Notes under the pieces: generated by a model
What the model was told of the DNA's origin: nothing
Seen by the model: only the letters and a program-made list of their open reading frames with translations
Database searches by the model: none
Assembly: GCF_949987535.1 (NCBI RefSeq)
Contig: NC_080080.1
Location: forward strand, 57,696,668-57,760,667
Direction of reading: 5' to 3'
Source: Balaenoptera acutorostrata
Taxonomy: Eukaryota; Chordata; Mammalia; Artiodactyla; Balaenopteridae
DNA length: 64,000 bases
Program-made: the position numbers and the translations under genes
In this document: positions 2,980 to 56,355 of the stretch, in pieces
Position numbering within the stretch: position 1 is the stretch's first letter
How the letters are laid out: every line of letters starts with the position of its first letter

Positions 2980-4079
2980 TCATAAGATATGTAAATCAAT
3001 AACTATAATACCAAGAAGAAGAAAATAAAGAAAGTGTGATGGAAGAGAGACCAACAATGTGCTATAAAGATTTGGAGGAAAGAATTCTATTAGGAGGAAT
3101 TGGAAAATTGACTTTTGAATTGAGTTAAAGCCCTTAAGGAATGGATGGAATTGGGAAAGATGGAGTTGAGACTGGCATACCATGAGGAAGAATCAGCCTG
3201 AGAAAACACCTGGAGACAGGAAAAGCCTGGTTAGTTTAGAGAAGGGTGAGAACTCCCATTTAGTGAGCATCTCAGGTAAGTCCAAGGGCCCATCAGGAGG
3301 ACAACATTGTGGAGAGCCCTGGATGCCCGGCCAAGATGAGGAATTTCTCTTAAATTTGCTGATGGACTCTCAAGGTTGTTGGGCAGCAGAGAGACTGACA
3401 ACAGTTGCATGTAAGAAAGTGAATAGCAGATTGCAGACAGGAGTGGTATTTAGAAAGCATGAAGGACAGTTAAAAGAGTTTTAGAGAAGTCCAAGAAAGA
3501 ATGAGGGTGACTTGGCTGTGGGCATCAGGAACTCACAGGAGGGGGACAAATCCAAAACCCATTGTAGAGATATCTTCAGGACTTTGGCAATGATTAGAAA
3601 GATTAGGAGCAGATTTGGGGAGAAGTTCAGTTTGGGACATGTTGAGCTTCAAGCAAAAGTAGGAAATCTAGGTAGAGATGCTTAGAGGGCAGTTGGCATA
3701 GCTGCCTAGAGTTTGGAAAGAGAGGATTAGTAGAACATGAGAGATTTTGGCAGAGAGGTGATTGTAGACACTATAGGAGAATAGGTGATTGCAGAAAGGC
3801 ATAAGGAAGCGATGGGAGATAAAGATCCTCATCAGAGGATCTTCAAACAGTGTGGGTCCATTCATTTGGAGATAGATTTATCAGGAAAGTTGATAGATGT
3901 AAAATGAAAACAGTGATGAAGAGCAATTTAATCCCATCAGAAACTAGTATCTTGACCTCTCAAAATACGATAATGGTTATCAACTATAAACACAATCTGA
4001 CTATGGAGAAAAAAATCTAGGTGCAGTGAAAGAAGAGCTGTATAGAATCAACAAGCAAACTTACCTTTACATGTTACTG
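2979..4079. other. Unassigned sequence with ancient-repeat character
   Basis: The purine-rich stretch at about 3230-3860 (phrases such as ttgggacatgttgagcttcaa and gggcagttggcatag) resembles an abundant old mammalian interspersed repeat whose family I cannot name. A 100-codon open frame at 3182-3484 lies in it and shows no domain or splice structure. Confidence 0.4.
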
Positions 4080-6246: not shown

Positions 6247-7770
6247 TAATGATGAAGAGAATCATAATGGGAAAAAATGACAACAGTGGAGATAAAATTA
6301 AACTACAAAAAGGATGCATAGGCTGCTTGATGGAGCCTTGGTAAATTGAATGTGACAAAGTGTAGCTTCTCAGGGAGAGACTAAGCCGAAAAGCAGAGTT
6401 AGTGGTCAGAAATTGAAATCCTAACTAATCCTCAAATCAAGAAATCAGATACTTCCTTCTCTCCTTTACCCACTAGAGGGAGTGTATTACTTCCCACAAG
6501 TCAGCCTTTGCCAAGTACATCTGACCCTGAAGCCCTTTAAGATGATAAGTTAATGGAACAATTAGAGCTGATGCTACAGCCTGTACGTTTTGATTTAACT
6601 AGATAGTTACAAAAAAAGGTCTCAGATCAAATCACATGGTAGCCAAAAGAAATGATCAAACTCAGAAGAAAAGAAAATCAAAGGAAATAATTTTTATTTC
6701 ATTGACTGCAAAAAGAATAAAATCTTTAGTAACAGGCTGTGTATCTGCTCAGTTTTAAATCTTTAGGCACCCATATTACGATGCTCTAAAAATCATTATG
6801 CAAATGTTATTACTTGATTTTTTTAGAAATCAGTTTGCCAATGTTCTTTTTTTTTTTCACATTTTCTTGAATGCTTGATTCAGATAGTTTGTGAATCATA
6901 ATATCTTGCTTCTCATGAAAACTTTCTCTCTCATATTCATGGATGGAGTCTGTAAAGTATGAATGGTCACTATGAAATCAGTGTTGAACATATGTTGAAA
7001 TGGTGAGACAAGCAGCATAAGTAGAGCAGTAATCCTCTCACAGAGCCTGGTAATCCTCTGACCCTGGGGGGCGAGGAGACCTGCCTCTGTACAATGTGCG
7101 GGTGAAAGTCCCAGGGTCCTGCCTCAGGTGACTGCTATGTGACTTCCTGGAACTCTCTGGTATGACACACTGTTGCTTAAATGAAGATGATTTTATTATA
7201 AAAAGAACAATTTTTGAAATGCCTTTGGCATTTTATATGTCTAAATAGAATGTTGTCTGGAATTTTTCATGTTGTTTAAAATTTCAGAAACTCAAAGTTA
7301 TCAACAAAAGTCATTCTATGGTTCCAATTCCAAATTCAAGGAGGCGCCTGTGTTAAAGTCAGCTGCCTCCCAAAAGGCTAACAAGAGAGACCCCAGTTGG
7401 AGCTGGCTTTCTTGTTAAGGTTTGATGACTGGGAGAGGGGAGAAGGCAGCCTGTCTTAGAAAATGCAGTTTGCAGAGAAAGTGGGATGTTTTGCTTCCCA
7501 GAGCCCAAAGAGATGGAGGTGTCAAGAGAATCCTCATAAGGCTTGGCGCTGCCTGAAAAAAAGAGAATGGACACTTTTCCCCTTAATTAGATATCTTCTT
7601 AGGGACTTGTTGATCGGTCCCATTCTCCTTACGCAGGGGGAAGGTCATTGGAGTGACCTGGCACTTAACACTCTGGGCCAATGATGCAACCTCCTTGTTT
7701 TCTCATTGACAAAACCAAGGGGTGACTCTATGAGCCTTTTAACTCCTCTACATAGTAAGTAAAAGACTTG
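6247..7770. other. Unassigned intergenic sequence
   Basis: No exon, RNA gene or named repeat is recognised. Open frames around 7359-7684 overlap one another on both strands and show no domains. Confidence 0.5.
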
Positions 7771-8138
7771 GGGCTTCCCTGGTGGCGCAGTGGTTAGGAA
7801 TCCGCCTGCCAATGCAGGGGACACGGGTTCTTGCCCCGGTCCGGGAAGATCCCACATGCCGCGGAGCGGCTGGGCCCGTGAGCCACAACTACTGAGCCTG
7901 CGCGTCTGGAGCCTGTGCTCCGCAACAAGAGAGGCCGCGATAGTGAGAGGCCCGCGCACCGCGATGAAGAGTGGCCCCCGCTCACCGCAACTGGAGAAAG
8001 CCCTTGCACGGAAACGAAGACCCAATACAGCCAAAAATAATAAATAATAAAAAAAAAAAAATAAATAACAGTGTGTGTGTATCTATAAGGGGTTAATTGT
8101 ATAAAGTTCTATACTTTAAAAAAAAAAAAAAAAAAAAA
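7771..8138 (+). mobile_element. CHR SINE with an extra 3' tail
   Basis: It is a full CHR SINE: tRNA-Glu-like head from 7771, CpG-rich body, and a cacagccaaaaataataaat tail ending near 8067. About 50 bp of non-SINE sequence (8068-8117) and a second, longer A tract (8118-8140) follow. The flanking repeat AAAAGACTTG occurs at 7761-7770 and 8139-8148, outside the second A tract, so the whole 368 bp inserted as one unit. Open frames of 85-129 codons lie within it on both strands and are not genes. Confidence 0.93.
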
Positions 8139-8830: not shown

Positions 8831-10615
8831 TTCTTCCTGACTCCTGAGTGAGGGTGCGTGTGTGTGTAGATAAGTACCTTTTGCTCTTCAGTCAGTGTTT
8901 AGCTGACTGAGTCTTCTTGGGGCTCTAGACCCCCTTCTCAGAGGTGGAGAAGAATGGCCCTCGGCTGTCACACTATCGTTGATGACCACTAACCATCTGT
9001 GTGCCTCAGTCTGCCACCTCAGGCCTGTCCCTCGGGTTCCCCCGCCTCGTGGTGCCATCACTTGTGCAGTGACCTTGAAGTCACAGCTAACTGCTTACTC
9101 TCGGATCAGCAGCCAAACTTCTCTGATTCTCAGCTGTGTGAGCCCCAAAGTACACAGCAGCACAGAAGCCAGCCCTAAGGGTCCCTTAACAGCGTGAGTG
9201 CTTTCTTCGGGTGCTGGACCCTTGATCGCTGAGGTTCTCTGGTGCCAGAAAGTCTGCAGGACCGCAGGATCCTCTGCCCCAGAAGCTGATGTGCTCCTCT
9301 GGTAAACAATCATCCTTATCTCAGACATGGGGTTGGCTGCTTATCAGGCAGTTCGTTCACTGACCTCAATCAGGAAAACAACCGCTCATCTGCCAGGCCC
9401 TAGGAAAATTACTGAACTGTTTAAGACGGCAAAATCAATAGCCAAGAACTCTGTAGCTTGACCTTGGAATTATTACGATGACTGAAGACTCAGCCCACGG
9501 GGAAGACAATTGTGGAGTGAGTTCAATCATAAACACGCCAGGCCTGGAGGAAGAAAAGGGCAGGGCCCACACAAACACGGCTTTCGCTGGTGAGTCTGGA
9601 CATGCCCAGCTTCTGAGGCTCCAGAATGAGAGCTGATCCAACTGAAGCAGGTACTTTGATGTTGAATTCCCAGACTCTGGTACTGAAGGTCTTCATTCCT
9701 GCACTCCCTTTCCTGGTTTGCTCACATTCTAACCAAGTCTCTAGATCATTGTCTACGTGACAGTATGATGTACATACATTCATGATGAAGATGAAGAAAT
9801 ATACATTTTACAATGAGAAAAACTACAAAGTGGCCATTTTGGATATGAATAATCTTCGCGTGACATATTTCTTAGGGAAGATTTGGGGCCAGTACACTGA
9901 TGTTTTGTTGACTTGTTTACATAGTTCCTAGTTTATTCCATGAGCCCAACCCAACCTCATTTACTTTGCTATTTGGTGTGGTTTGGGAGCTTGAGCCTTG
10001 GGTGGAAGTGAAGTTACATGTTCTAGTCCAATCTACTTTAGATGGTAATCTCTAACCCCCGAAATGCCACAAACTCTTTTTTGTTTAGTTCCCCCTGTAA
10101 TATACATGGTACAGTAAATTAATGACGAGGATCTGAAAATGGAAAGGATCATGGCTACAGGAAGGGCTTAGAATCATTTGAGAGAAAAGAGTAAAATGAA
10201 TGCAAGATATTCCTATTATTCTACATATTCATCATATGAGTTATAAGCTTAAAGGTTGGTTAATGAAATCATATTATGTGTTCTAAAAAATAGTAAAAAC
10301 TACATTTTTACTGCAAAGAAAAATACATATGAGAAAAATACATGGGAAAATGTATGGTTCCCATAATAATTAAAGAACAGTTTTTTTCTCTTCTATGAAA
10401 AGCTAACTTTTTGACATATTTAGAGCATAAATAAGTAAAGGGAATTTGTTTGCTTTTGAAAGTGAATTAATACATAGTTTGTCTATTTTCCCTATTCTCC
10501 CAATAAGTGAAAGCCTCTGTAAGTCTTTATTGGTTCCTGATCTCTTCTCCCCTTTATGAACAACTTAACCTCTTTCTCCCCCTTCTACTATCACACAGTA
10601 TTTGTATTTCACCCT
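8831..10615. other. Unassigned intergenic sequence
   Basis: A moderately GC-rich stretch (about 8840-9700) holds several short overlapping open frames (68-86 codons) with no recognisable domain. The remainder is AT-rich. No splice-bounded exon or RNA gene is recognised. Confidence 0.5.
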
Positions 10616-13224: not shown

Positions 13225-13667
13225 TTAAAAAAATTAAGATATAATTGACATATAACATTATGTTAAAGATGTGCAACGTGTTGATTTGTTTTTTGTTGTA
13301 TTTTTTGAATTTTCTTTCTTTTTTTTACAACGTGTTGATTTGATACACATGTATATTACAATAAGATTACCACTGTCGGGCTTCCCTGGTGGCGCAGTGG
13401 TTGAGAATCTGCCTGCTAATGCAGGGGACACGGGTTCGAGCCCTGGTCTGGGAAGATCCCACATGCCACGGAGCAGCTGGGCCCGTGAGCCACAATTGCT
13501 GAGCCTGCGCGTCTGGAGCCTGTGCCCCGCGACGGGAGGGGCCGCGATAGAGAAAGGCCCGCGCACCGCGATGAAGAGCGGTCCCCGCACCGCGATGAAG
13601 AGTGGCCCCCGCTTGCCGCAACTGGAGAAAGCCCTCGCACGAACCGAAGACCCAACACAGCCAAAAA

Positions 13668-13706
<39 letters not shown>

Positions 13707-35653: not shown

Positions 35654-35951
35654 ATTTATTTATTTATTTATTATTAATTAATTTATTTTTGGCTGTGTTG
35701 GGTCTTCGTTTCTGTGCGAGGGCTTTCTCTACTTGTGGCAAGCGGGGGCCACTCTTCATCGCGGTGCGCGCGCCTCTCACTATCGCGGCCTCTCTTGTTG
35801 TGGAGCACAGGCTCCAGACGCGCAGGCTCAGTAGTTGTGGCTCACGGGCCTAGTTGCTCCACGGCATGTGGGATCTTCCCAAACCAGGGCTCGAACCCGT
35901 GTCCCCTGCATTGGCAGGCAGATTCTCAACCACTGTGCCACCAGGGAAGCC
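35654..35951 (-). mobile_element. CHR SINE with target-site duplication
   Basis: Minus-strand full copy: TTTA-repeat tail, cgcggtgcgcgcgcctctca body, head accagggaagccc. CCAGATTTATTT flanks it at 35642-35653 and 35952-35963. It has no 24-bp internal duplication. Confidence 0.96.
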
Positions 35952-35963
35952 CCAGATTTATTT

Positions 35964-38059: not shown

Positions 38060-38305
38060 TACTGTTCTTTTTACATAAAATTACATTTACCATTTTAACC
38101 ATGTTTAAGTGTACAGGTCAGTAGTGTTCCGTATATTCACATTGTTGTGCACAGATCTCTAGATCTTTCCATCTTTCATCTTGTGACATTGAAACTCCCT
38201 CCCCCTCCCCCAAGCCCCTGGCAACTACCCTCCTACTTCCAGTTTCTATGATTTGACTACTTTAGATACTTCATATAAGTAGGATCATATAGTATTTGTC
38301 CTTTT
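38060..38305 (-). mobile_element. Old L1 3' region
   Basis: Minus strand: attacatttaccattttaac, gtacaggtcagtagtgttcc, gcacagatctctagatcttt and ttcatataagtaggatcata. Confidence 0.75.
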
Positions 38306-38400: not shown

Positions 38401-38714
38401 TTTATGTATGTATGTATGTATGTACGTATGGCTTTGTTGGGTCTTCGTTTCTGTGCGAGGGCTTTCTCTAGTTGTGGCAAGCGGGGGCCACTCTTCATCG
38501 CGGTGCGGGGGCCACTCTTCATCGCGGTGCGTGGGCCTCTCACTATCTCGGCCTCTCGTTGCCGAGCACAGGCTCCAGACGCACAGGCTCAGTAATTGTG
38601 GCTCACGGGCCGAGTTGCTCCGCGGCATGTGGGATCCTCCCAGACCAGGGCTCGAACCCGCGTCCCCTGCATTGGCAGGCAGACTCTCAACCACTGCGCC
38701 ACCAGGGAAGCCCC
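38401..38714 (-). mobile_element. CHR SINE with internal 24-bp duplication
   Basis: Minus-strand copy with a TATG-repeat tail (38404-38427) instead of AAAT. GCCACTCTTCATCGCGGTGC starts at 38487 and again at 38511, a 24-bp tandem duplication at the same place as in the 13.4-kb copy. The target-site duplication is not clear because the flank is T-rich. Frames up to 140 codons across it are SINE sequence. Confidence 0.95.
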
Positions 38715-39468: not shown

Positions 39469-39665
39469 ACCACCTGCAGACATGTGGGCACATCCAGCCC
39501 CATCCAGAGCTTTCATGGTTCAGAGAGATGTGGAATCCCATCAACTTCTCCCCATCCCCCACTCAACAGGTTGGTTCTAACTTTCAGGTCATCGCATGGT
39601 TGCCTCAGTTGCTCTCAAATCATTTGGGTGCTGGTGCAACTCTTCCCTGAAAAATCCATGTGCTG

Positions 39666-39967
39666 GGGCTTCCCTGGTGGCGCAGTGGTTGAGAATCTGC
39701 CTGCCAATGCAGGGCACACGGGTTCGAGCCCTGGCCTGGGAAGATCCCATATGCCACGGAGCAGCTAGGTCCGTGAGCCACAACTACTGAACCTGCGCGT
39801 CTGGAGCCTGTGCTCTACAACAAGAGAGGCCGCGACAGTGAGAGGCCCGTGCACCGCGATGAAGAGTGGCCCCCTCTTGCCGCAACTAGAGAAAGCCCTT
39901 GCACAGAAACGAAGACCCAACACAGCCATAAATCAATAAATAAATAAACTACATTCCTTTAAAAAAA
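39666..39967 (+). mobile_element. CHR SINE with target-site duplication
   Basis: Full forward copy with AAAT tail. AAAATCCATGTGCT flanks it at 39651-39664 and 39968-39981. Confidence 0.97.
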
Positions 39968-44832: not shown

Positions 44833-44846
44833 AAATATTTCATTTG

Positions 44847-45143
44847 GGGCTTCCCTGGTGGCGCAGTGGTTGAGAGTCTGCCTGCCAATGCAGGGGACAC
44901 GGGTTCGAGCCCTGGTCTGGGAAGATCCCACATGCTGCGGAGCAATTAGGCCCGTGAGCCAAAATTACTGAGCCTGCGCGTCTGGAGCCTGTGCTCCGCA
45001 ACAAGAGAGACCGTGATGGTGAGAGGCCCGCGCACTGCGATGAAGAGTGGCCCCCACTTGCCACAACTAGTGAAAGCCCTCGCGCAGAAACGAAGACCCA
45101 ACACAGCCATAAATAAATAAATAAATAAATAAAAATTTAAAAA
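44847..45143 (+). mobile_element. CHR SINE with target-site duplication
   Basis: Full forward copy, AAAT tail at 45110-45132. AAATATTTCATTTG flanks it at 44833-44846 and 45144-45157. No internal duplication. Confidence 0.97.
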
Positions 45144-46285: not shown

Positions 46286-46539
46286 AAAACAAATTGCTTA
46301 GCTGAAATAACTCAAGTTCAATATTCCAAAACACTGGAAACTCTTGTATGGTGGGGTTCTCCTCTCTCCTTCTCTGCAGGAATATGATAAGCTCTGTACT
46401 TCTGTGATGGATCAATATAGTTACAATACCTTTCTGTAAAAAGAGAACCAATATTTATATCTATATCTTATCTGTATTACATCTATGTCAATCAATCCAT
46501 TGGCTCATTGATAGCAATGGGGAAATGGGGATGATGAGA
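46286..46539. other. Unassigned sequence
   Basis: No gene or named repeat is seen. Confidence 0.5.
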
Positions 46540-49240
46540 CTGAAGCAAAATAGGGGCCGGGTGGCAGCACTTGACTGCCAAAGCCAGGGCATTGCAGCTA
46601 AGGGGGCTTGACTTGGAGGGCATTGTGGAGACGATTAATAGAACATGGCGCCCCTAAAGGCAAAATAGATGAATAACCAATGGGGGTACTGCTTAATCCA
46701 TACAATCAAAAGAAGGCAAGAATAGATGAACAGTAGGCTGAGGGTGGTCACCCCCATAGAAATTCATGATCCTTTGCCCAGATCTCAGACCTCAGGCAGT
46801 TTTCAGACCCAGAAACCACTGGCTGAAGAGGTGGCCAAGTCCATAGGAGGAAGTATCTTGAAATATCATGGGAAAAAATATAGTATGTTAATTTCCCCCA
46901 TTTTCCTCAAAAAGACCTATGGTAATTCAGCTGAGAAAATACACACTGGGGAAAGAGGAATATCCAAATATTTTGAGGGTATTGGATCTGAATTAACATT
47001 GATTCACAGAGTTCCAAAACATCATATTAGAGAGGAGGCATACCGGGGCCAAGTAATAAACAATATCCTGGTCAGAGTCTGGCTCTCAGTAGGTCCAGTA
47101 GGTCCGTGGACCCAGCCAGTGGTCACCTCCCCAGTCCCTGAATGTAGAATTGAGATTGATGTAGGTGGCTGTTGCAGTAGCCTCCATCTTGAATTCTTCT
47201 CATTCAAACCAAATGAGCTATCATAGTGAGAAGGTGACGTGGAATCTTTTGAAACTGCACCTCTACTCTCCCATCCTTTCTATCCCCATCCCCTTGTCAG
47301 TCCTGGCTAAGATGGTGAATCCAAAAATATTGCATTTGGAGGTGGTGATGAAGAGGAATGGTAGAAATTAATGCTACTCTAAAGGATCTTAAGAATGCAA
47401 GGGATAGTGGTCCATATCACAGCTCCATTTAATTCACCAGTCTCACCACTGTACAAACTAAATGAATCTTGGAGAATGACTGTAGGCCACAGCAAGCTCA
47501 AATAATAGCCCCAATTGTGGCTACTGTGCTAGATGTGCTACCTTTGCAAGAGCAGATTAATATGGCCTCAGGTACATGGCATGCAGACAGGGATTTGGCA
47601 TTTTTTTCTGTCCCGATCAGGAAAGATCAGAGACTGTTTGCAATTACATAGAACTGATAACAATATACATTTACAGGTTTGTCTGGGGCTACATTACCAC
47701 CTGCTCTCTGTCATAATATAATCAGATAATATACAGGTTGTCTGGACGTCCTGCGCAACCTTGTGTTGATTAGGAGGGTGAGCAAGAAGTGGCTAGCGTA
47801 CTGGAGGTGTTGGTAAGACACAGGGATTGCAAAGTATGGGAGTTAAAGTTGGTGACAACCGAGGGAACCTCCACTGTTGTAAAGTGTTTAGTGATCCAGG
47901 TGGGTCAAGGGCAGGTGAAGACATCTCTTCCATAAGACAAATTGCTGCATCTTACCTTTCTACCAGAAAGAAGGAAAAAGAATTCCTGGTAGGATGCTTT
48001 GGCCTATGATGCCAACATATCCTATATCTAGGAATGTGTTCCAGCCCATATAGTGGGTGACAAGTAAATCTCCCTGCTTTGAGTGAGGCCTGGAACAGGA
48101 AGTCAGGGCTGCAATGCAAGCAACCCTGCTGCTTGGGCCAGATGATCTGGCAAACCCTATGCTGTTGGAGGGGTTAGTGACGGGAAAAGATGCAGTGTGG
48201 CACATAGGTGAAGCCTGGGTGGGAGCAGCCAACACAGACCTCTGGCATTTGGGAACAAGGCCATGTCATCTGCAACGGAAATTTATATGTTTTTTGAAAA
48301 AGAGTTCCTGGTGTGTTAAGGGGGCTGAGTAGAGACAGAATTCTTGATTATAGGACACTAAGTAACCATGGGTCTGGTACTGTCCATTACGATCTGGGTT
48401 CTGTCAGACCCACAGAGTCATAAACTCAGGCAGACCCAGCAGCAATCCAACATGAGATAGAGATTGTGCAACTGGGTTCGAGGCTAAACAAGACCAGAAG
48501 ACATGAGGTAACTGCATGAGCAGGTAGCCCAGACCATGTCACCCACCACAGGAGTACCAGCACCCACCCCCTCAGATCGTTCCTAGAACTGGGGTGGGGG
48601 CTGGAGGGGGGGAGGGGTGTCGCGTGTGACCAGCTGAAGCAGTGGGAGAAGCCTGGACATCTGTTATGGATAGCTCAGCTCAGCGAGTGGATGCAGGCTG
48701 AAAGTGAGCAGTGGTTTGATTATACTCAGGTTGGGAGGGTACTTGAAAACCAGTGGTGAGAAAAATCGTCCCCATGGACAAAGCTCAGAGTGGTGCTCCT
48801 GTTACTAATTTTGTGTGGAGGGAGCAGTGGCCTGAGATGAGAATATACACATCCTCATGGGGGAATACAGTCTGATAGGCTGGTCAGGGGTTTGAAGGAA
48901 AAGGACTAAAAAATTGGAGACAAAGAAGTTTGGCATAAAGGAATATGGATGTACTTACAGGAAAGGGGATAATGTGTAAAGATCTTTAATACACATATTA
49001 ATGGACACCAGAAAGCCTTCATCACAGAAAAGGCAGGAACAACCAATCAGACGCATGACTAGGCCAGTGTACATTGGCCGGTCTTTGAACTGACACGGTG
49101 ATCACAGGAACGGAGGGACCACGGGGGCAGAGTTAGAGGCTGCGCCCTGCTCTGGTCCATCGACATCTTTGAACGCCTAACCTGCCAGCAATGGACACAA
49201 ACGCTGAGTTCCCAAAGTGACTTCTTTGAGGAGATGATTT
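46540..49240 (+). pseudogene. Decayed endogenous retrovirus interior (ERVL-like pol)
   Basis: About 2.7 kb of + strand sequence that reads, in short shifted frames, like retroviral pol. At 47469-47651 a frame carries a reverse-transcriptase-like stretch (motif WHADRDLAFFSVPI), and the frames at 47827-48330 continue with segments like the rest of the RT and connection region. An open frame of 166 codons at 46726-47226 precedes it and may be gag-pol border sequence. The segment after 48.4 kb has no clear frame and may be integrase or later. Stops and frameshifts break every part, and no intact gene remains. No flanking LTR pair was identified. An old ERVL or MaLR-related element is the likeliest reading. 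Confidence 0.6.
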
Positions 49241-49490: not shown

Positions 49491-50560
49491 CTATACGTGA
49501 TTTTCCTTATGTTGGGGGATCAATGTGCATCCAACATATGAGGCAACACAGTGGACATTTTCTTGAAAAATCCAAGGAATTTTAACATCTTTGGTGCCTA
49601 ATTTTAATCTCATTAGTACCTTCATAGGTGAGTCATTTCCTGGAGTCAGCCTCATGCCTATTCAATTGAGTGGGCATAACTTTACAAATTGTACAAATTA
49701 ATGTAAAAAAAAAAATCATAACGTTGAACTGCCTAACATAGGAAAGGAAGAAAAACAGAAACAAACTATAGTATCTTTTCCAATTCTAGTTAGGACATTA
49801 AATCAATGGTGTCTGCAAAATTGCTTAGCCTCATATTAGGTGTATAATCCTAGCTGTTCCATAAATGTTTGTTGAATAATTTTCGGTAAGACCATTGGCC
49901 TGGATAAGTGTCTTTGCGGATATTTAGATAGTGGACATTTAACATTTTAATGGGAATTGTTATAGAACGTTGTATTTCCTTTCCTGTCTTAAAAAGATTT
50001 TAATTAATTTCACTTTTTCTTAATAACTCTGTGTCAGAATATGGACATCAAGCACTGCCTAGAATTAACAATGATGTCCTTGGGGCTGATGGTATGTGTA
50101 AGGCTGTGCTTGTTTTGTAAGTTATCCTTTAGAGACTCCTCTTCTCTAGTTGGTGTATTTACTATTATATTTCATTTCCTCTGTTCTGATTCCTTACAGA
50201 TATCCATGGACATCAAAGTGTTACAGTCAAGGTTGAAAGGAGCAGAATTTAGCCTAGATTAAGGGGGATTTACTAAGAAGATATTTGGTGTTCCCATGGC
50301 AATGACGACTATCTAAGCTTATGCGAAATTGAGCTGGCATATGGAAAAGCATCAACAACAAGTCTTTGTGTATTTGTGTATATAACACGATCTCTTTGCT
50401 TCTTTTTATTTTACTTTTTATTTTTAATTGAAGTATAGTTGCTGTATTTCCTTCCTTTTTTTTCTGCTTCATTCTCTTGCTCAATATGTACATGACTTAA
50501 AATGATTGTTCTAGCCCTGACTAAACTTAGCTTTTTGGTTCAAATGCCAAATGCCATCCA
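49491..50560. other. Unassigned intergenic sequence
   Basis: No gene is seen. A short L1-like stretch (ttttaattgaagtatagttg) lies at 50422-50445. The segment could hold upstream non-coding exons of the FABP12 relic, but none is recognisable. Confidence 0.45.
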
Positions 50561-50720: not shown

Positions 50721-51228
50721 TGAAGTCTCTGGTTTTTAGTTCAAAGTATCAAAACTGAGAATATGATAAGCTCGCTAAACAGCTGATAAATTGGCTTTTT
50801 TTTCTAGATCATCCTTGCTCAGAGAAAGAGAGAGAAAGAGCTGGAGCTTAGGGGTCCTATGGCATAAACACAGCTGCCTAGGTTTACCCCTTACACATTG
50901 CTCTGTGTGTGCGGCAGTTCTTAGGGAAGGAACTAGAGAGAATTTGTAACATCCAGTTTTGATCCTAAATTAGAGATGGAAAAGTTATATCTAGTCCTGC
51001 TAAAATCTGTACCATGCTCCATTATCATCCTGACTTACTTACATTTGAGAGAGCTTTCCGGCTTTGGATGGTTTGATGGGAAGATGACAAGGATTAGAGT
51101 GTCTTATTTTTTTCCCTGACTTTTCTGCACTATCTACCAGAATTGTATTAAAAACAGGTTCCAACACTATTTCAGGGAACATACTCATTCATATGATGCT
51201 ATTTTTCTTTAAAGTCAACTTAGGCAGA

Positions 51229-51301
51229 ACGGTTGATCGGTTCCGGGGAACATGGAAATCCATTCCTTGTGAAAATTTTGAAGAATATATGAAAGAACTG
51301 G
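51229..51301 (+). pseudogene. FABP12: FABP12 relic, coding exon 1
   Basis: 73 nt, the normal length for a family exon 1, ending after one base of a codon and followed by the donor GTGAGCC. It encodes VDRFRGTWKSIPCENFEEYM then KEL. The first codon is ACG where the family has ATG. The bases before it (atttttctttaaag ending at 51214) resemble a splice acceptor, so a leader exon may begin at 51215. The only in-frame ATG upstream without a stop is at 51196-51198, within that acceptor-like region. Confidence 0.88.
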
Positions 51302-51639
51302 GTGAGCCATGTTTACTTGCATATCATGGCCAGTAAAAATGGGAGCTTTGATAGCACAGAACTTGCTCTGTGTGAACCCCTCCCTTCAGTTTTTCACACA
51401 GAAACAATAAATATTAATTTAGCACCTAGATACAGTTCTGCGTAAAACTGGTTAAAATTGACATAACCCCTCCTCTCATATAATTGACCACGGATTTACA
51501 TAGATAAAACATGCATGTGCCATATACTAAATGGCAAATGATTTCAATAAATGATTTTAAGCAAAAAGTCACAATTATTTAAAAAAAATGATCATTTTGC
51601 AAACATTTGCTCTAAATTTTCTGAGGATTTTCAGAATAG

Positions 51640-51960
51640 ATCTTGTGTTCCAGTTTCTGATGGCTGCTGGCATTCCTTGGCACATGGCCACAACACTTCA
51701 GTCTTTGCTCCTATTGTCACATTTTCTCCTCTTCTGTAGTTTAATATCCCTCTTCCTCTTCTCACAAGGAAAATTTCTTCTTATACAGAAATTTGTGACT
51801 ATATTTAGGGTCCACCTGGATAATCCAAGGTAATCTCCCTATTTCAAGATCCTTAAATTAGCCATATTTGCAAAGCCCCCTTTGGCATATAAAGTAACAT
51901 TCACAGGTTCCAGGGACTAGGACGTGAGTATCTTTGGGAACAATTTTCCAACCTGTCACA
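51640..51960 (-). mobile_element. MaLR-type LTR fragment
   Basis: Reverse strand: gatggctgctggcattcctt, ttatatttagggtccacctg-like run, caagatccttaaattagcca, and acattcacaggttccaggga. It lies in intron 1 of the FABP12 relic. Confidence 0.75.
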
Positions 51961-52029
51961 TCTTGCCATCATGTTTCACAATATGAATTCCATGAACCAT
52001 GTTACAGTGTCTCCCCAATGTATCTTCTC

Positions 52030-52375
52030 CTAGAAGTTTAACTTAGGTATTGAAGTATATGTAATACTATTTCCATAGAATATACTCCTACATGTACTGC
52101 ACAAAGTTGTGTGTGCAATGATGTTCACTACAGCATTATTTGTAATACCAACAAAAAAGGAAACAACAAAATGCCCATCAATAAGGGGACAGATGAATAA
52201 ATATTAGTATTAGTATGTATAGAATTTTTAATAGTGGCAATGGTTGTATAACATTGTGAATGTACTTAATGTCACTTAATTGTACACTTTAAAATGGTTA
52301 AAATGGTAAATTTTATGTTATATGTATTTTACCACAGTAAAAATACATAATAGAAAAAACAAACCCTATACATGT
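52030..52375 (+). mobile_element. Old L1 3' end beside the cut exon 2
   Basis: gttcactacagcattatttg, gaaacaacaaaatgcccatc, then the 3' UTR blocks acttaattgtacactttaaa and atatgtattttaccacagta with an A-rich end near 52360. It fills the place where the first part of coding exon 2 should be. Confidence 0.8.
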
Positions 52376-52400
52376 GAACATGTAAGAATGTAAGGGAAGA

Positions 52401-52475
52401 AATAAAGATCTGGAAGAATCCTTTAAACTGAGAGAAGAGTTTGAGGAAACCACACCAGGTGGCCATAAAACTAAG
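52401..52475 (+). pseudogene. FABP12: FABP12 relic, 3' remnant of coding exon 2
   Basis: It encodes SFKLREEFEETTPGGHKTK (52419-52475) and then the donor GTGAGACC. The family exon 2 has 173 nt, so it would start near 52303, where an L1 tail now lies. Before SFKL two extra codons (six nt) are present compared with the family. A stop (TAA, 52383-52385) closes the frame just upstream. Confidence 0.85.
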
Positions 52476-52609
52476 GTGAGACCTTCAACACTCTTTCAGA
52501 TAAATTTCATAAGAATGTTAATTTTGAAATCATCCCAAGTAAGTAAGCAGTTATAGCAAACATATCTAAAATCTGTGTTAGATTAATTTGGGACTTCAGC
52601 CTAGGTCTG

Positions 52610-52775
52610 AGGATCTCAAATTTTAATACACACATAAATCTCTCAGGATGTTTGTAAAAAATACCTACTTCTAGGTCTCATCCCAGAGGCTCTGATATCT
52701 GGGGCCAGTACCTGAAAACTGTATTTTTAACAATTCTGATGCAGATGCTTAGCAGAACACATTTTGAGAATTATT
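52610..52775. mobile_element. MER5A element
   Basis: ctgaggatctcaaattttaa, cccagaggctctgatatctg, ttctgatgcagatgcttagc and attttgagaattattt. Intron 2 of the FABP12 relic. Confidence 0.7.
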
Positions 52776-53274
52776 TCTTTAGATTGTTCTCTCAGAAACA
52801 AAACGTCTATCTTTCTATTTTGCAGCAGTTTTCCACACATAGAATTACAACGAATAAAACTTGTATTAGCCAGTATACGTGAGGTCATATCAATCACAGT
52901 AACAAATTATCCACAAGCTCTCAGTGGCTTACACATTTGGAGTTCTAACTCATAGTACATATTCAGTGTTGTGGTGGAGTCAGAGAAGTTTCTGTGTAAG
53001 GGGAGAATGGGGCAAGAAATGGGGACATATGGTATCTGCCCCTCTTAATTTCTCCAGGGCCCAGGCCAAAGGAGGTTCAACTATCTTATAGTTGGACCAT
53101 CTGAAGTTTGTGTTCTCAGTCAGCAAGGTAGAGAAAGACACACTGGGCTTTTTATTGCCTCAGCCTGGAAGTGACACACACAGTTTCATTCATCTTATGG
53201 GCTCCAAATTGAATACACAACTTATATTACACAATTTATTTATATTTTTTTGTTTATTTTCTGTTCCCCCAAAC

Positions 53275-53390
53275 TAGAATGTAAGATCTTCAAAGAAAGA
53301 ATTTCTTGTCTGTTCTGTTTTACAGAACCCAGTGTTTGTTACATAATGTTTGCTCGATAAATATTTATCATTTGAATGAATACACTCAAT
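53275..53390 (+). mobile_element. L2 3' end
   Basis: ctagaatgtaagatcttcaa, ttgtctgttctgttttacag, then tcgataaatatttatcattt and gaatgaatac. Confidence 0.8.
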
Positions 53391-53764
53391 AGAGGATTGT
53401 TAAACAATATGGAGGGTGAGGTCCTGACAAAAGGAACTGAATACCACATTATCAGACAGTTCTTAAATAATATGAGACTTCAAATTCCTGTATAATATCA
53501 AATGGAAGAAGAATTTTGACCAAAAATGTTTAATAAAGATGACCATAGTAAATTAAAAATCTACTAGAATAAAAAGGCTGAAAAATATAGGAGAGCAGAA
53601 AGAAAATTTGGTGACCATCATTATCTCTGTCACGGGACAGACTGTAAGTAATTTTGGTAGAAGGCCCAACTTGGTAGACGTGTAAACTCTGAGATGTATG
53701 CTTCCCAATGATTATATACTATGGTATTGCACTAGAGTAGAGTTTAATCAGAGATATCTCTAAA

Positions 53765-54035
53765 CTTTGTGGAGCAAGATGCAGACTCTGGCTCAGAACT
53801 GATTCAGTGTGAATCCTACCTCTGCCACCAATCAACCATGTGACTTTGGGCAAGTCACAGACTCTTGCTGACTCAATCTTTTCATTTGCAGAAGAGGATT
53901 ATTATAGTACTTACGTCATAAAATTGTTGTGAGGATTACATGGGTTATTATATTAATACTCTTGAAGAGTGTCTCACACAATAAATAGTGCTACATAAGT
54001 GGTAGTTACTGTTGTTGTGATTATTATTATCATTA
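53765..54035 (+). mobile_element. MIR element, near full length
   Basis: All MIR blocks in order: ctcagaactgattcagtgtg, cctacctctgccaccaatca, gtgactttgggcaagtcaca, gaggattattatagtactta, gttgtgaggattacatgggt and a TTATTAT end. Confidence 0.9.
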
Positions 54036-54045
54036 TTTTTATTGT

Positions 54046-54095
54046 GTTGGCCAAAAAGTTCGTTTGGGTTTTTCCATAAACTGTTGCGGAATATA
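54046..54095. mobile_element. Mariner terminal fragment
   Basis: gtgttggccaaaaagttcgt, ttgggtttttccataaactg is the terminal sequence of a mariner family known from ruminants and whales. Only one terminus is seen. Confidence 0.6.
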
Positions 54096-54467
54096 TTGTT
54101 GAGGTAGGAAGAGGAAATCTGATCTTACAGTAGGGGTTTGAATTAGCTTCATGTGCATTTTTAAGGTTGAAACTTACCTGTGATTCTTTATGCAGAAAGA
54201 TAATACTTGGCCTATACAATAAAATATTTTAAAAAATCTTTACTTACTCAAGATATTTTGTTTTCACTCTTATAAAACTTTTTCTAACCCCAGAAGAATC
54301 AGCCAACAAATTTATTGTTGACAGAGTCTTAAAATAAATGGAATTGTAAACACCATTCTAAAGCTACCTGAGAGTATCACAACAGCTGAAAAGAATTTGG
54401 CACCTGATAAAATTTTAGAGTTCAAATATGACAATCTGAGCTGAATTTGGTCTTGCCTGTTTTTCAG

Positions 54468-54569
54468 AGTACGGTAACCTTAGATGATGACTCTTTGATT
54501 CAGGTTCAGGCCTGGGATGGGAAAGAGACCACCATCAGGAGGGAGCTAGTGGATGGGAAAATGTTGGGG
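54468..54569 (+). pseudogene. FABP12: FABP12 relic, coding exon 3
   Basis: 102 nt, 34 intact codons: [20 protein letters not shown], then [14 protein letters not shown]. It is preceded by ttttcag and followed by gtgact. Length, phase and both splice sites are normal, and there is no stop. It is the best preserved exon. Confidence 0.92.
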
Positions 54570-55029
54570 GTGACTGAGCTGTTTCTCATTATTTTTTTCA
54601 CCTACTCCAACACCTATATATAAAATCACTCAGATAGCTTGTTCTAAAACAGTGGTAGTCAATGTAATTTTTCTTTTCCTCTTGCTTTATAAGAATGGGA
54701 GAGGGGGAATGTTGGCAGATAAATGTACGATCATAAAGATTATAAAATGTGCAAGGATTGAGAAAATAAAAAACTAGAGAGAATTTTAAAAATTGTCTTG
54801 CCTAATTCTTTGATTGGCGTGGAAGGGAAAACAAGCATGTATTTGTGCAAGAAAGATTTCAACAGGGACTGAGAGTTGTTGCTGATCCTCTGCGCCACAC
54901 CAGGATGAATTTCTTAGCGTTTTCCAGATCAACACCAACCAAAAGCATGAAAAGGAAATTTAAACTAGGGAAGCAAAGCTTACGTGTTGTCTGTTTGATG
55001 TCTGGATCAATTGACACAAATAAAAACTA

Positions 55030-55235
55030 ACATTTATGTGGCTACGATGTCGCCATGTTTTCATGTATTATTTACCCAATTTTCATAATAGTCCTGTAAA
55101 ATAAGATTATTTAGCCCATTTAACAGGTGAGAAAATTAAGAGTCAGACCCTGACTTACCTAAGGATATTTGGCCAGGAAAATGTGGTGGTGCTGGGATTA
55201 AAATCCACGTTGGCTTAATTCCAAAGTCTATACTT
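55030..55235 (-). mobile_element. MIR element
   Basis: Reverse MIR: aacatttatgtggctacgat, gcccatttaacaggtgagaa, tgacttacctaaggatattt, gtgctgggattaaaatccac. Confidence 0.85.
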
Positions 55236-55559
55236 TTTTGAGTCTATCCTGCTCCCTCTCAGGACGGCTTCCCATCTTTCTCACTTGTACAAGGTGGAGG
55301 GAAATACGTCCATGATTCTTCTCTTCCCAAACCCCACCTCCACCAAAATGAATAAAATAATTTTGGACATAATATAAAATAGTTCTTTCTAAGGGAATAT
55401 GCAAGAATTGTGTGAAGTTAAAAAAAAATCTGTCCTCATTTCTTAACAGGAATATTTTTCTTTCAACAATGAAGAGTACATTTCATTATAAAGTAAGAAG
55501 TGGAAGACTAAGGATAATTGATTTTATTGATGCCATTAATCACTAAACAGATAGGTATT

Positions 55560-55717
55560 ATAGCTCATTAGAAAAAATACTAGATTCAGAATCCGAAGAC
55601 ATGGATTTCCATATCTGCCTTCAGTACTTATGTGACTTTGGAAAAGTCATTCATCCTTTCCAAGATTCAGCTTTCAAAATGTAGAAAATGTTTTTTTTTT
55701 TTTTTTTTTTTTTTTTT
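55560..55717 (+). mobile_element. MIR fragment ending in a 27-T run
   Basis: actagattcagaatccgaag, gtgactttggaaaagtcatt, then cagctttcaaaatgtagaaa. A homopolymer of 27 T lies at 55691-55717, in intron 3 of the FABP12 relic. Confidence 0.75.
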
Positions 55718-56235
55718 CTTTTGGAGAGAATTAAATACCATCATGTACATATCAATGTTCTGAAAACCATGAAATACTGTATTGATGTAAATTATTATTT
55801 GAAAAATATAGAGTATGTAAAACTCTACAAAAATGCCTCAGTGTAGGCATTTAAAAATGTTTTAATGGATATTTCAAATTCCTATAAATATGCTTTTTTA
55901 TATATATAATATACAAATATATATATATACACACACATTTATATACCATATGTCATGTGTAACATATATATGATTTGCCATGTATATACATATATATACT
56001 CTTACTCTAAGTAGAATGTTACTTTATCACAAGTAAAATATTGTTTCATTAGTGCCAAATCTCATATATGTATATATGGCAAAATCACTCAGCCAATACT
56101 TATGATTTATGGTTGTCTATAAAGATCTCATTTCCAGATTTTTAAGGAATGTATGGATGGATAGTAGTTTATATTTTTCTAAATGCCAATTTCACCAACA
56201 GTACTGAAATGTCTTATCCTTTGTTTGCCTTCTAG

Positions 56236-56310
56236 GAAAGTGCTGTGAACAACGTTGTCTGCACTTGAACATATGAGAGAGTACAAACAAACTCAGTCTC
56301 AAACTATTAG
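56236..56310 (+). pseudogene. FABP12: FABP12 relic, coding exon 4 with premature stop
   Basis: After the acceptor ttctag the frame reads ESAVNNVVCT, then TGA at 56266-56268, then TYERVQTNSVSNY and TAG at 56308-56310. The TGA replaces the Arg of the family's Arg-x-Tyr pair, which holds the fatty-acid carboxylate. CGA to TGA is one CpG transition. The 13 codons after it still follow the extended FABP12 C-terminus. Confidence 0.9.
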
Positions 56311-56349
56311 GCACTCTCAAACTGTGATCCAAACTGCCAAGGCTGTTTA

Positions 56350-56355
56350 AATAAA
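56350..56355 (+). promoter_or_regulatory. Poly(A) signal of the FABP12 relic
   Basis: AATAAA lies 40 bases after the ancestral stop codon, in the short 3' UTR expected for this gene. Confidence 0.6.

Follow-up and report, generated by a model that had tools for sequence, protein, structure and literature searches.

The closest described case is the loss of FABP9 in whales, for which a GT to GA change at the exon 1 donor, conserved in all cetaceans of the study, was published as a founding loss (PMC6526905); the accessible main text of that article does not name FABP12, and nothing on FABP12 appears in the accessible part of PMC8074237. FABP12 itself "could not be identified" in dolphin and pig according to Table 1 of PMC7193176, an entry that, in the accessible part of the article, stems from a database look-up and comes with no lesions, no baleen whales and no locus. 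The same source gives lengths of 173 nt for exon 2 and 102 nt for exon 3 and describes the FABP genes as co-located, and FABP12 mRNA is reported in rat retina and testis (accessible part of the review PMC11277531, citing Liu et al., 2008). As far as the accessible parts of these sources extend, only PMC7193176 is pertinent to a loss of FABP12 in whales, and an earlier mention may exist in supplements or in a gene-loss survey of whales. FABP9 is a neighbor of FABP12 in the same cluster, and its published GT to GA donor change is also present in the genome studied here, but the loss reported below concerns a different gene.

The locus lies in a window of 64,000 nt, the whole stretch of DNA that was analyzed, corresponding to positions 57696668-57760667 of contig C23 in a genome of 2.77 Gb, and the body of FABP12 occupies positions 51193-56355 of this window on the + strand. 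Four FABP12 exon pieces, collinear and on that strand, were recovered by tblastn against the window, with E values for the hippopotamus pieces of 1e-11 (exon 1), 2e-8 (exon 2), 1e-16 (exon 3) and 1e-7 (exon 4). Using sequences of FABP12, FABP4, FABP5, PMP2 and FABP9 as queries, the FABP12 query, which is 97% identical to gorilla FABP12, gave the lowest E at 4 out of 4 exons. A protein search placed FABP12 proteins first, the nearest being those of gray whale and humpback, with hippopotamus ranked second (best 120 of 170 matches). The initial annotation had recognized the exon pieces of FABP12 in this region, an identity that these searches bear out. Downstream on the same strand of C23 lie FABP4 (from 57794169), FABP9 (from 57812122) and PMP2 (57835193-57838822), a placement for which we take the gene order of the human FABP cluster as reference. 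Best match and cluster position are thus those of a FABP12 orthologue, but the four-exon structure is not intact, as exon 3 fits and exon 2 reaches at most 89 nt, which defines a broken FABP12 orthologue. A CHR-type SINE matches the window six times at near full length and four times in part; together with the nearest proteins, those of gray whale and humpback, and the GT to GA change at the FABP9 exon 1 donor, these matches identify the genome as that of a whale, likely a baleen whale.

Exon 1 has a coding part of 73 nt (51229-51301) ending at a GTGAGC donor, exon 3 (54468-54569), intact as the initial annotation had described it, is open over its full 102 nt and followed by GTGACT, and exon 4 extends from 56236 to the ancestral end at 56310, ahead of a possible polyadenylation signal (AATAAA, 56350-56355). 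Exon 2, taken with the limits that the gray whale and humpback models give it, spans 52387-52475 and retains its donor (GTGAGA). Introns are present and the junctions of exons 1, 3 and 4 are in place, which rules out a processed copy as the identity of this locus, the processed copy of FABP12 being a separate locus on C20. The splice sites, previously considered intact, are so at the GT donors of exons 1-3 and at the AGs preceding exons 3 and 4, whereas the true acceptor of exon 2 is gone. Apart from the lesions described below, the kept coding stretches are open.

Depending on the measure, the kept part of exon 2 amounts to 89 of 173 nt from 52387, to 72 nt by protein match (52404-52475) or to 61 nt by DNA match to the FABP12 retrocopy of the same genome (52415-52475), leaving 84-112 nt missing, in line with the shortening of about 100 nt noted earlier. 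Because the DNA alignment to the retrocopy starts only at 52415, and because the similarity of 52387-52414 to exon 2 is no better than that of shuffles (461 of 500 score as high), the exon start used in the whale models probably consists of rearranged DNA or of sequence borrowed from the intron. We also considered, and discarded, that the first half of exon 2 had been displaced: hippopotamus residues 25-58 found no real match across the whole window (43% over 21 residues at the best E, 0.06), and an equally long piece of exon 3, used as positive control, gave an E of 1e-16. A repeat is found at 52250-52321, with a second copy at 38075-38146, and any role for it in the exon 2 deletion is a guess. 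The deletion, which would have occurred in the whale line, is envisaged to have taken out the last part of intron 1 together with the acceptor and the codons for residues 26 to about 60, and would thereby have cost the protein its second portal helix and first barrel strands. No gap within residues 25-58 was found in any of 45 mammal FABP12 proteins, chosen, with isoforms and partial records left out, from the best 120 of 361 listed. Two fates can be envisaged for the resulting mRNA. Use of a poor new acceptor at 52385-52386 would yield a protein of about 98 residues, or about 110 from an upstream ATG; alternatively, exon 2 would be skipped, and such skipping, which shifts the frame and leads to a stop after six codons, is ruled out as a rescue.

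The premature stop reported for exon 4 is present, a TGA at 56266-56268 in the place where 41 of the 45 mammal proteins have Arg127 (Tyr129 is found in 44 of them), and beyond it the remaining codons still match FABP12 up to the ancestral end. A change from CGA to TGA, before or after the exon 2 deletion, would have removed Arg127, which we assume to be part of the Arg-x-Tyr carboxylate-binding pair of FABP12; PMP2 structures align to hippopotamus FABP12 across residues 1-132. The third lesion, also described in the initial annotation, is the ACG at 51229 in place of the start ATG, Met1 being present in 45/45 mammal proteins. The consequences of this change may be milder, since an in-frame upstream stretch (51193-51228, + strand) carries two ATGs (51193 and 51196) and leads into exon 1 with the reading MMLFFFKVNLGR, which matches the N-terminal extension annotated for sheep FABP12 and resembles those of goat, oryx, dog and ferret. 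The ACG may therefore be bypassed by an in-frame ATG further upstream, and alone need not kill FABP12. However, an AG at 51213-51214 could keep both ATGs out of the mRNA.

The comparison with other whales, made at the level of protein models, separates these lesions by how widely they are shared. The gray whale FABP12-like protein (P0121, 98 aa) runs from exon 1 into the same exon 2 remnant and ends after C-T at the position of the TGA, as does the translation of the window, but it keeps Met1 and differs in 7 of 98 residues, the start included. The humpback FABP12-like protein (P0122, 136 aa, flagged LOW QUALITY) has an exon 2 remnant identical over 30 residues and lacks one residue at the TGA position; unlike the window translation, it begins with upstream exons and leaves out exon 1, making it uninformative on the start codon, and it reads past the TGA position, with several residues differing. 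The hippopotamus protein (P0031), in contrast, is the same protein at full length, with Met1 and Arg127 present, and is 75-88% identical to the window translation over the kept parts. Since the exon 2 cut and the TGA are reflected in the models of both whales, these two lesions would predate the split of the window whale, gray whale and humpback, whereas the change from ATG to ACG, given the Met1 of the gray whale model, is a later or line-specific change, separate from the others. The lesions do occupy separate sites, as the description of several independent lesions implied, and two of the three are common to other whales. The same distribution bears on the possibility that the lesions are assembly or base-call errors in the sequenced animal. 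The animal is represented by a single sequence, and the ACG is absent from the gray whale model, leaving this doubt unanswered for the start codon; the exon 2 cut and the TGA are reflected in the proteins of two other whale assemblies, which answers it for these two, and we regard error as a highly improbable explanation.

A decayed extra copy in the window, with an intact FABP12 elsewhere in the genome, would also account for the lesions. The whale proteins are named "-like" by NCBI, as might be expected of such a copy, but two whole-genome searches, which score the best candidates only and leave gaps and unscored places outside their reach, retrieved no intact second FABP12, either with the human query (16 matches, 39 candidates scored) or with the hippopotamus query (19 matches, 36 scored). 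The best other FABP12-like match was an intronless sequence on C20 near 16773510, 68% identical to FABP12 and 54% to PMP2, which lacks exon 1, is frameshifted near residue 117, has Gly at position 127 and carries an A-rich tail. The remaining matches that entered the comparison corresponded best to FABP3, FABP4, FABP5, FABP7, FABP9 or PMP2, weaker ones on C1, C14, C15 and at C23:57968680 lying outside the comparison. As far as these searches reach, the only second copy is thus a decayed intronless one, which answers the refuting condition of an intact second copy set in the initial annotation. The window locus, moreover, sits at the FABP cluster, and the two cetaceans among the best 120 of 170 protein matches include no full-length FABP12, the hippopotamus coming second; cetaceans were missing from the best 120 of 361 and from the best 120 of 458 rows of two other protein lists, the names in all these lists being representatives of 90% clusters. 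An intact copy elsewhere is accordingly given almost no credence. Loss in place rather than a processed copy, as first proposed, agrees with the introns, the position ahead of FABP4, FABP9 and PMP2, and the lesions shared with the gray whale and humpback models.

The retrocopy also sheds light on the 5′ structure of the gene. Its 5′ end corresponds to window positions 9574-9687 (E 4.5e-14), joined directly to exon 2 without exon 1; this stretch has no repeat copies within the window and ends at a GT (GTCTTC), marking a likely distal first exon at 9574-9688 (+ strand). As the sequence was retroposed, an exon-1-skipping mRNA must once have been made in the germ line. Further candidates on the + strand are a possible distal exon at 3182-3275, which matches exon 1 of the FABP12-like model from humpback and is followed by CAG|GTAAGT, and a possible 5′ exon at 50038-50091, matching the second exon of that model and flanked by AG and GTATGT. 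Weak similarity links 48368-48516 (+ strand, best piece E 1.7e-5) to a 5′ exon from an exon-1-skipping FABP12 isoform of dog, and 46359-46403 (+ strand, 15 residues, E 6.5e-5) to one from a FABP12 isoform of sheep. Upstream exons are spliced to exon 2 in annotated isoforms from sheep, dog, macaque and Bos as well as in the retrocopy, so that distal first exons and mRNAs skipping exon 1 are likely to be long-standing features of FABP12.

These exons are relevant to another reading, in which the gene has been remodelled and still encodes an FABP12-like protein, shortened to 98-110 residues, by way of the new exon 2 acceptor combined with exon 1 or with distal first exons. The gray whale and humpback annotations contain the same in-phase remnant, NCBI annotates a coding "FABP12-like" gene in gray whale, the frame from exon 1 through the remnant and exon 3 is open in the window up to the TGA, and one of the upstream exon candidates has a perfect donor. 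The TGA, furthermore, belongs to the last exon and so is not expected to trigger nonsense decay. The AG before 52387, however, has only 8 pyrimidines among its 18 upstream bases, compared with 14 and 15 at the acceptors of exons 3 and 4, and 66% of the AGs in the window equal or exceed it; one prediction program would choose the same AG twice, so that two models, that of humpback being of low quality, are not two proofs. In its boldest form, this reading would have baleen FABP12 rebuilt rather than simply lost, with distal first exons lying as far as 48 kb upstream joined to the shortened exon 2 at its new acceptor, to yield a mini-FABP that has neither the portal helix nor the arginine for carboxylate binding. 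The loss of these elements, together with the first strands, weighs against any such product, and we attach a low probability to the shortened protein in general and an equally low one to this rebuilt version.

The kept codons provide little to distinguish function from decay. On a tree of 91 kept columns the hippopotamus branch measured 0.060 and the window branch 0.103 changes per site (about 1.7 times more), the latter being a sum over branches in a rough tree with hand-placed whales and parts that are plainly wrong. Val116, present in 45/45 mammals, is replaced by Gly in all three whales. Unique residues nevertheless fell at conserved sites in 2 of 7 cases in whales and in 42 of 87 in other mammals (a protein proxy), and this lack of excess, which favors the remodelled gene, does not support relaxed selection on the kept codons, of which the branch length gives a mild sign. 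The neutral share of nonsense changes over the 96 kept codons is 3.4%, under an assumed 4:1 transition weight, and the absence of further stops is therefore no evidence for function.

Taken together, these data identify the locus as the FABP12 of what is likely a baleen whale, without the first half of exon 2 and with a stop in the last exon, and very probably as a unitary pseudogene that decayed in place: introns are kept, lesions are common to the protein models of relatives, and the genome searches contain no intact copy. Judging from the sequence, it is likely that no working protein is made from it. Decay is not cluster-wide, since FABP4 retains the ATG, GT and AG signals of exons 1-3 and PMP2 those of exons 1-4 together with its stop; both genes look intact, a reading that for FABP4 would apply to exons 1-3.

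The initial annotation had related the loss to aquatic life, a view weakened by the full-length FABP12 proteins of dugong (P0013) and northern fur seal (P0036), which make water a poor cause, and by the failure to identify FABP12 in pig as well as dolphin in the accessible part of PMC7193176. The evidence points instead to a cause peculiar to whales, or to a gene that was simply dispensable. FABP12 would thus likely be a unitary pseudogene with two lesions common to at least three baleen whales, lying beside the known FABP9 loss, and a second dead gene in one whale FABP cluster in which FABP4 and PMP2 look intact. Its lesions can be ranked by how widely they are shared and could be typed in toothed whales.

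In the humpback whale, the FABP12-like model (P0122; 136 aa, low quality) starts about 48 kb upstream, and matches to both of its upstream exons are present in the window, at 3182-3275, with a perfect donor (CAG|GTAAGT), and at 50038-50091. Weak matches were also found to 5' exons from FABP12 isoforms of the dog (48368-48516) and the sheep (46359-46403), in which the 5' exon is spliced directly onto exon 2 and exon 1 is skipped. Elsewhere in the genome of the same animal, an intronless, frameshifted FABP12 retrocopy lacking exon 1 lies on contig C20 (L001:1504-1840; from C20:16773510), with a 5' end derived from window positions 9574-9687. This retrocopy is a natural trace of an ancient transcript in which exon 1 was skipped.

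Six SINE-like copies of the CHR type, each almost full length (7770-8047, 13378-13680, 35673-35953, 38412-38714, 39665-39945, and 44846-45126), showed 80-88% identity to a consensus sequence.

Across aligned pieces of 51229-56268, 7 of the 98 residues of the gray whale model (P0121) differ from the window, including the start, which seems high for close whales and possibly reflects fast decay or divergent haplotypes.

An intronless stretch on C13 (L003:1504-1722; from C13:26335945), 73% identical to FABP9, is apparently a retrocopy. In the cluster gene FABP9 itself (C23:57812122-57815019; L014), the exon 1 donor is changed from GT to GA, matching the change published for cetaceans; therefore, the cluster contains two dead FABP genes.
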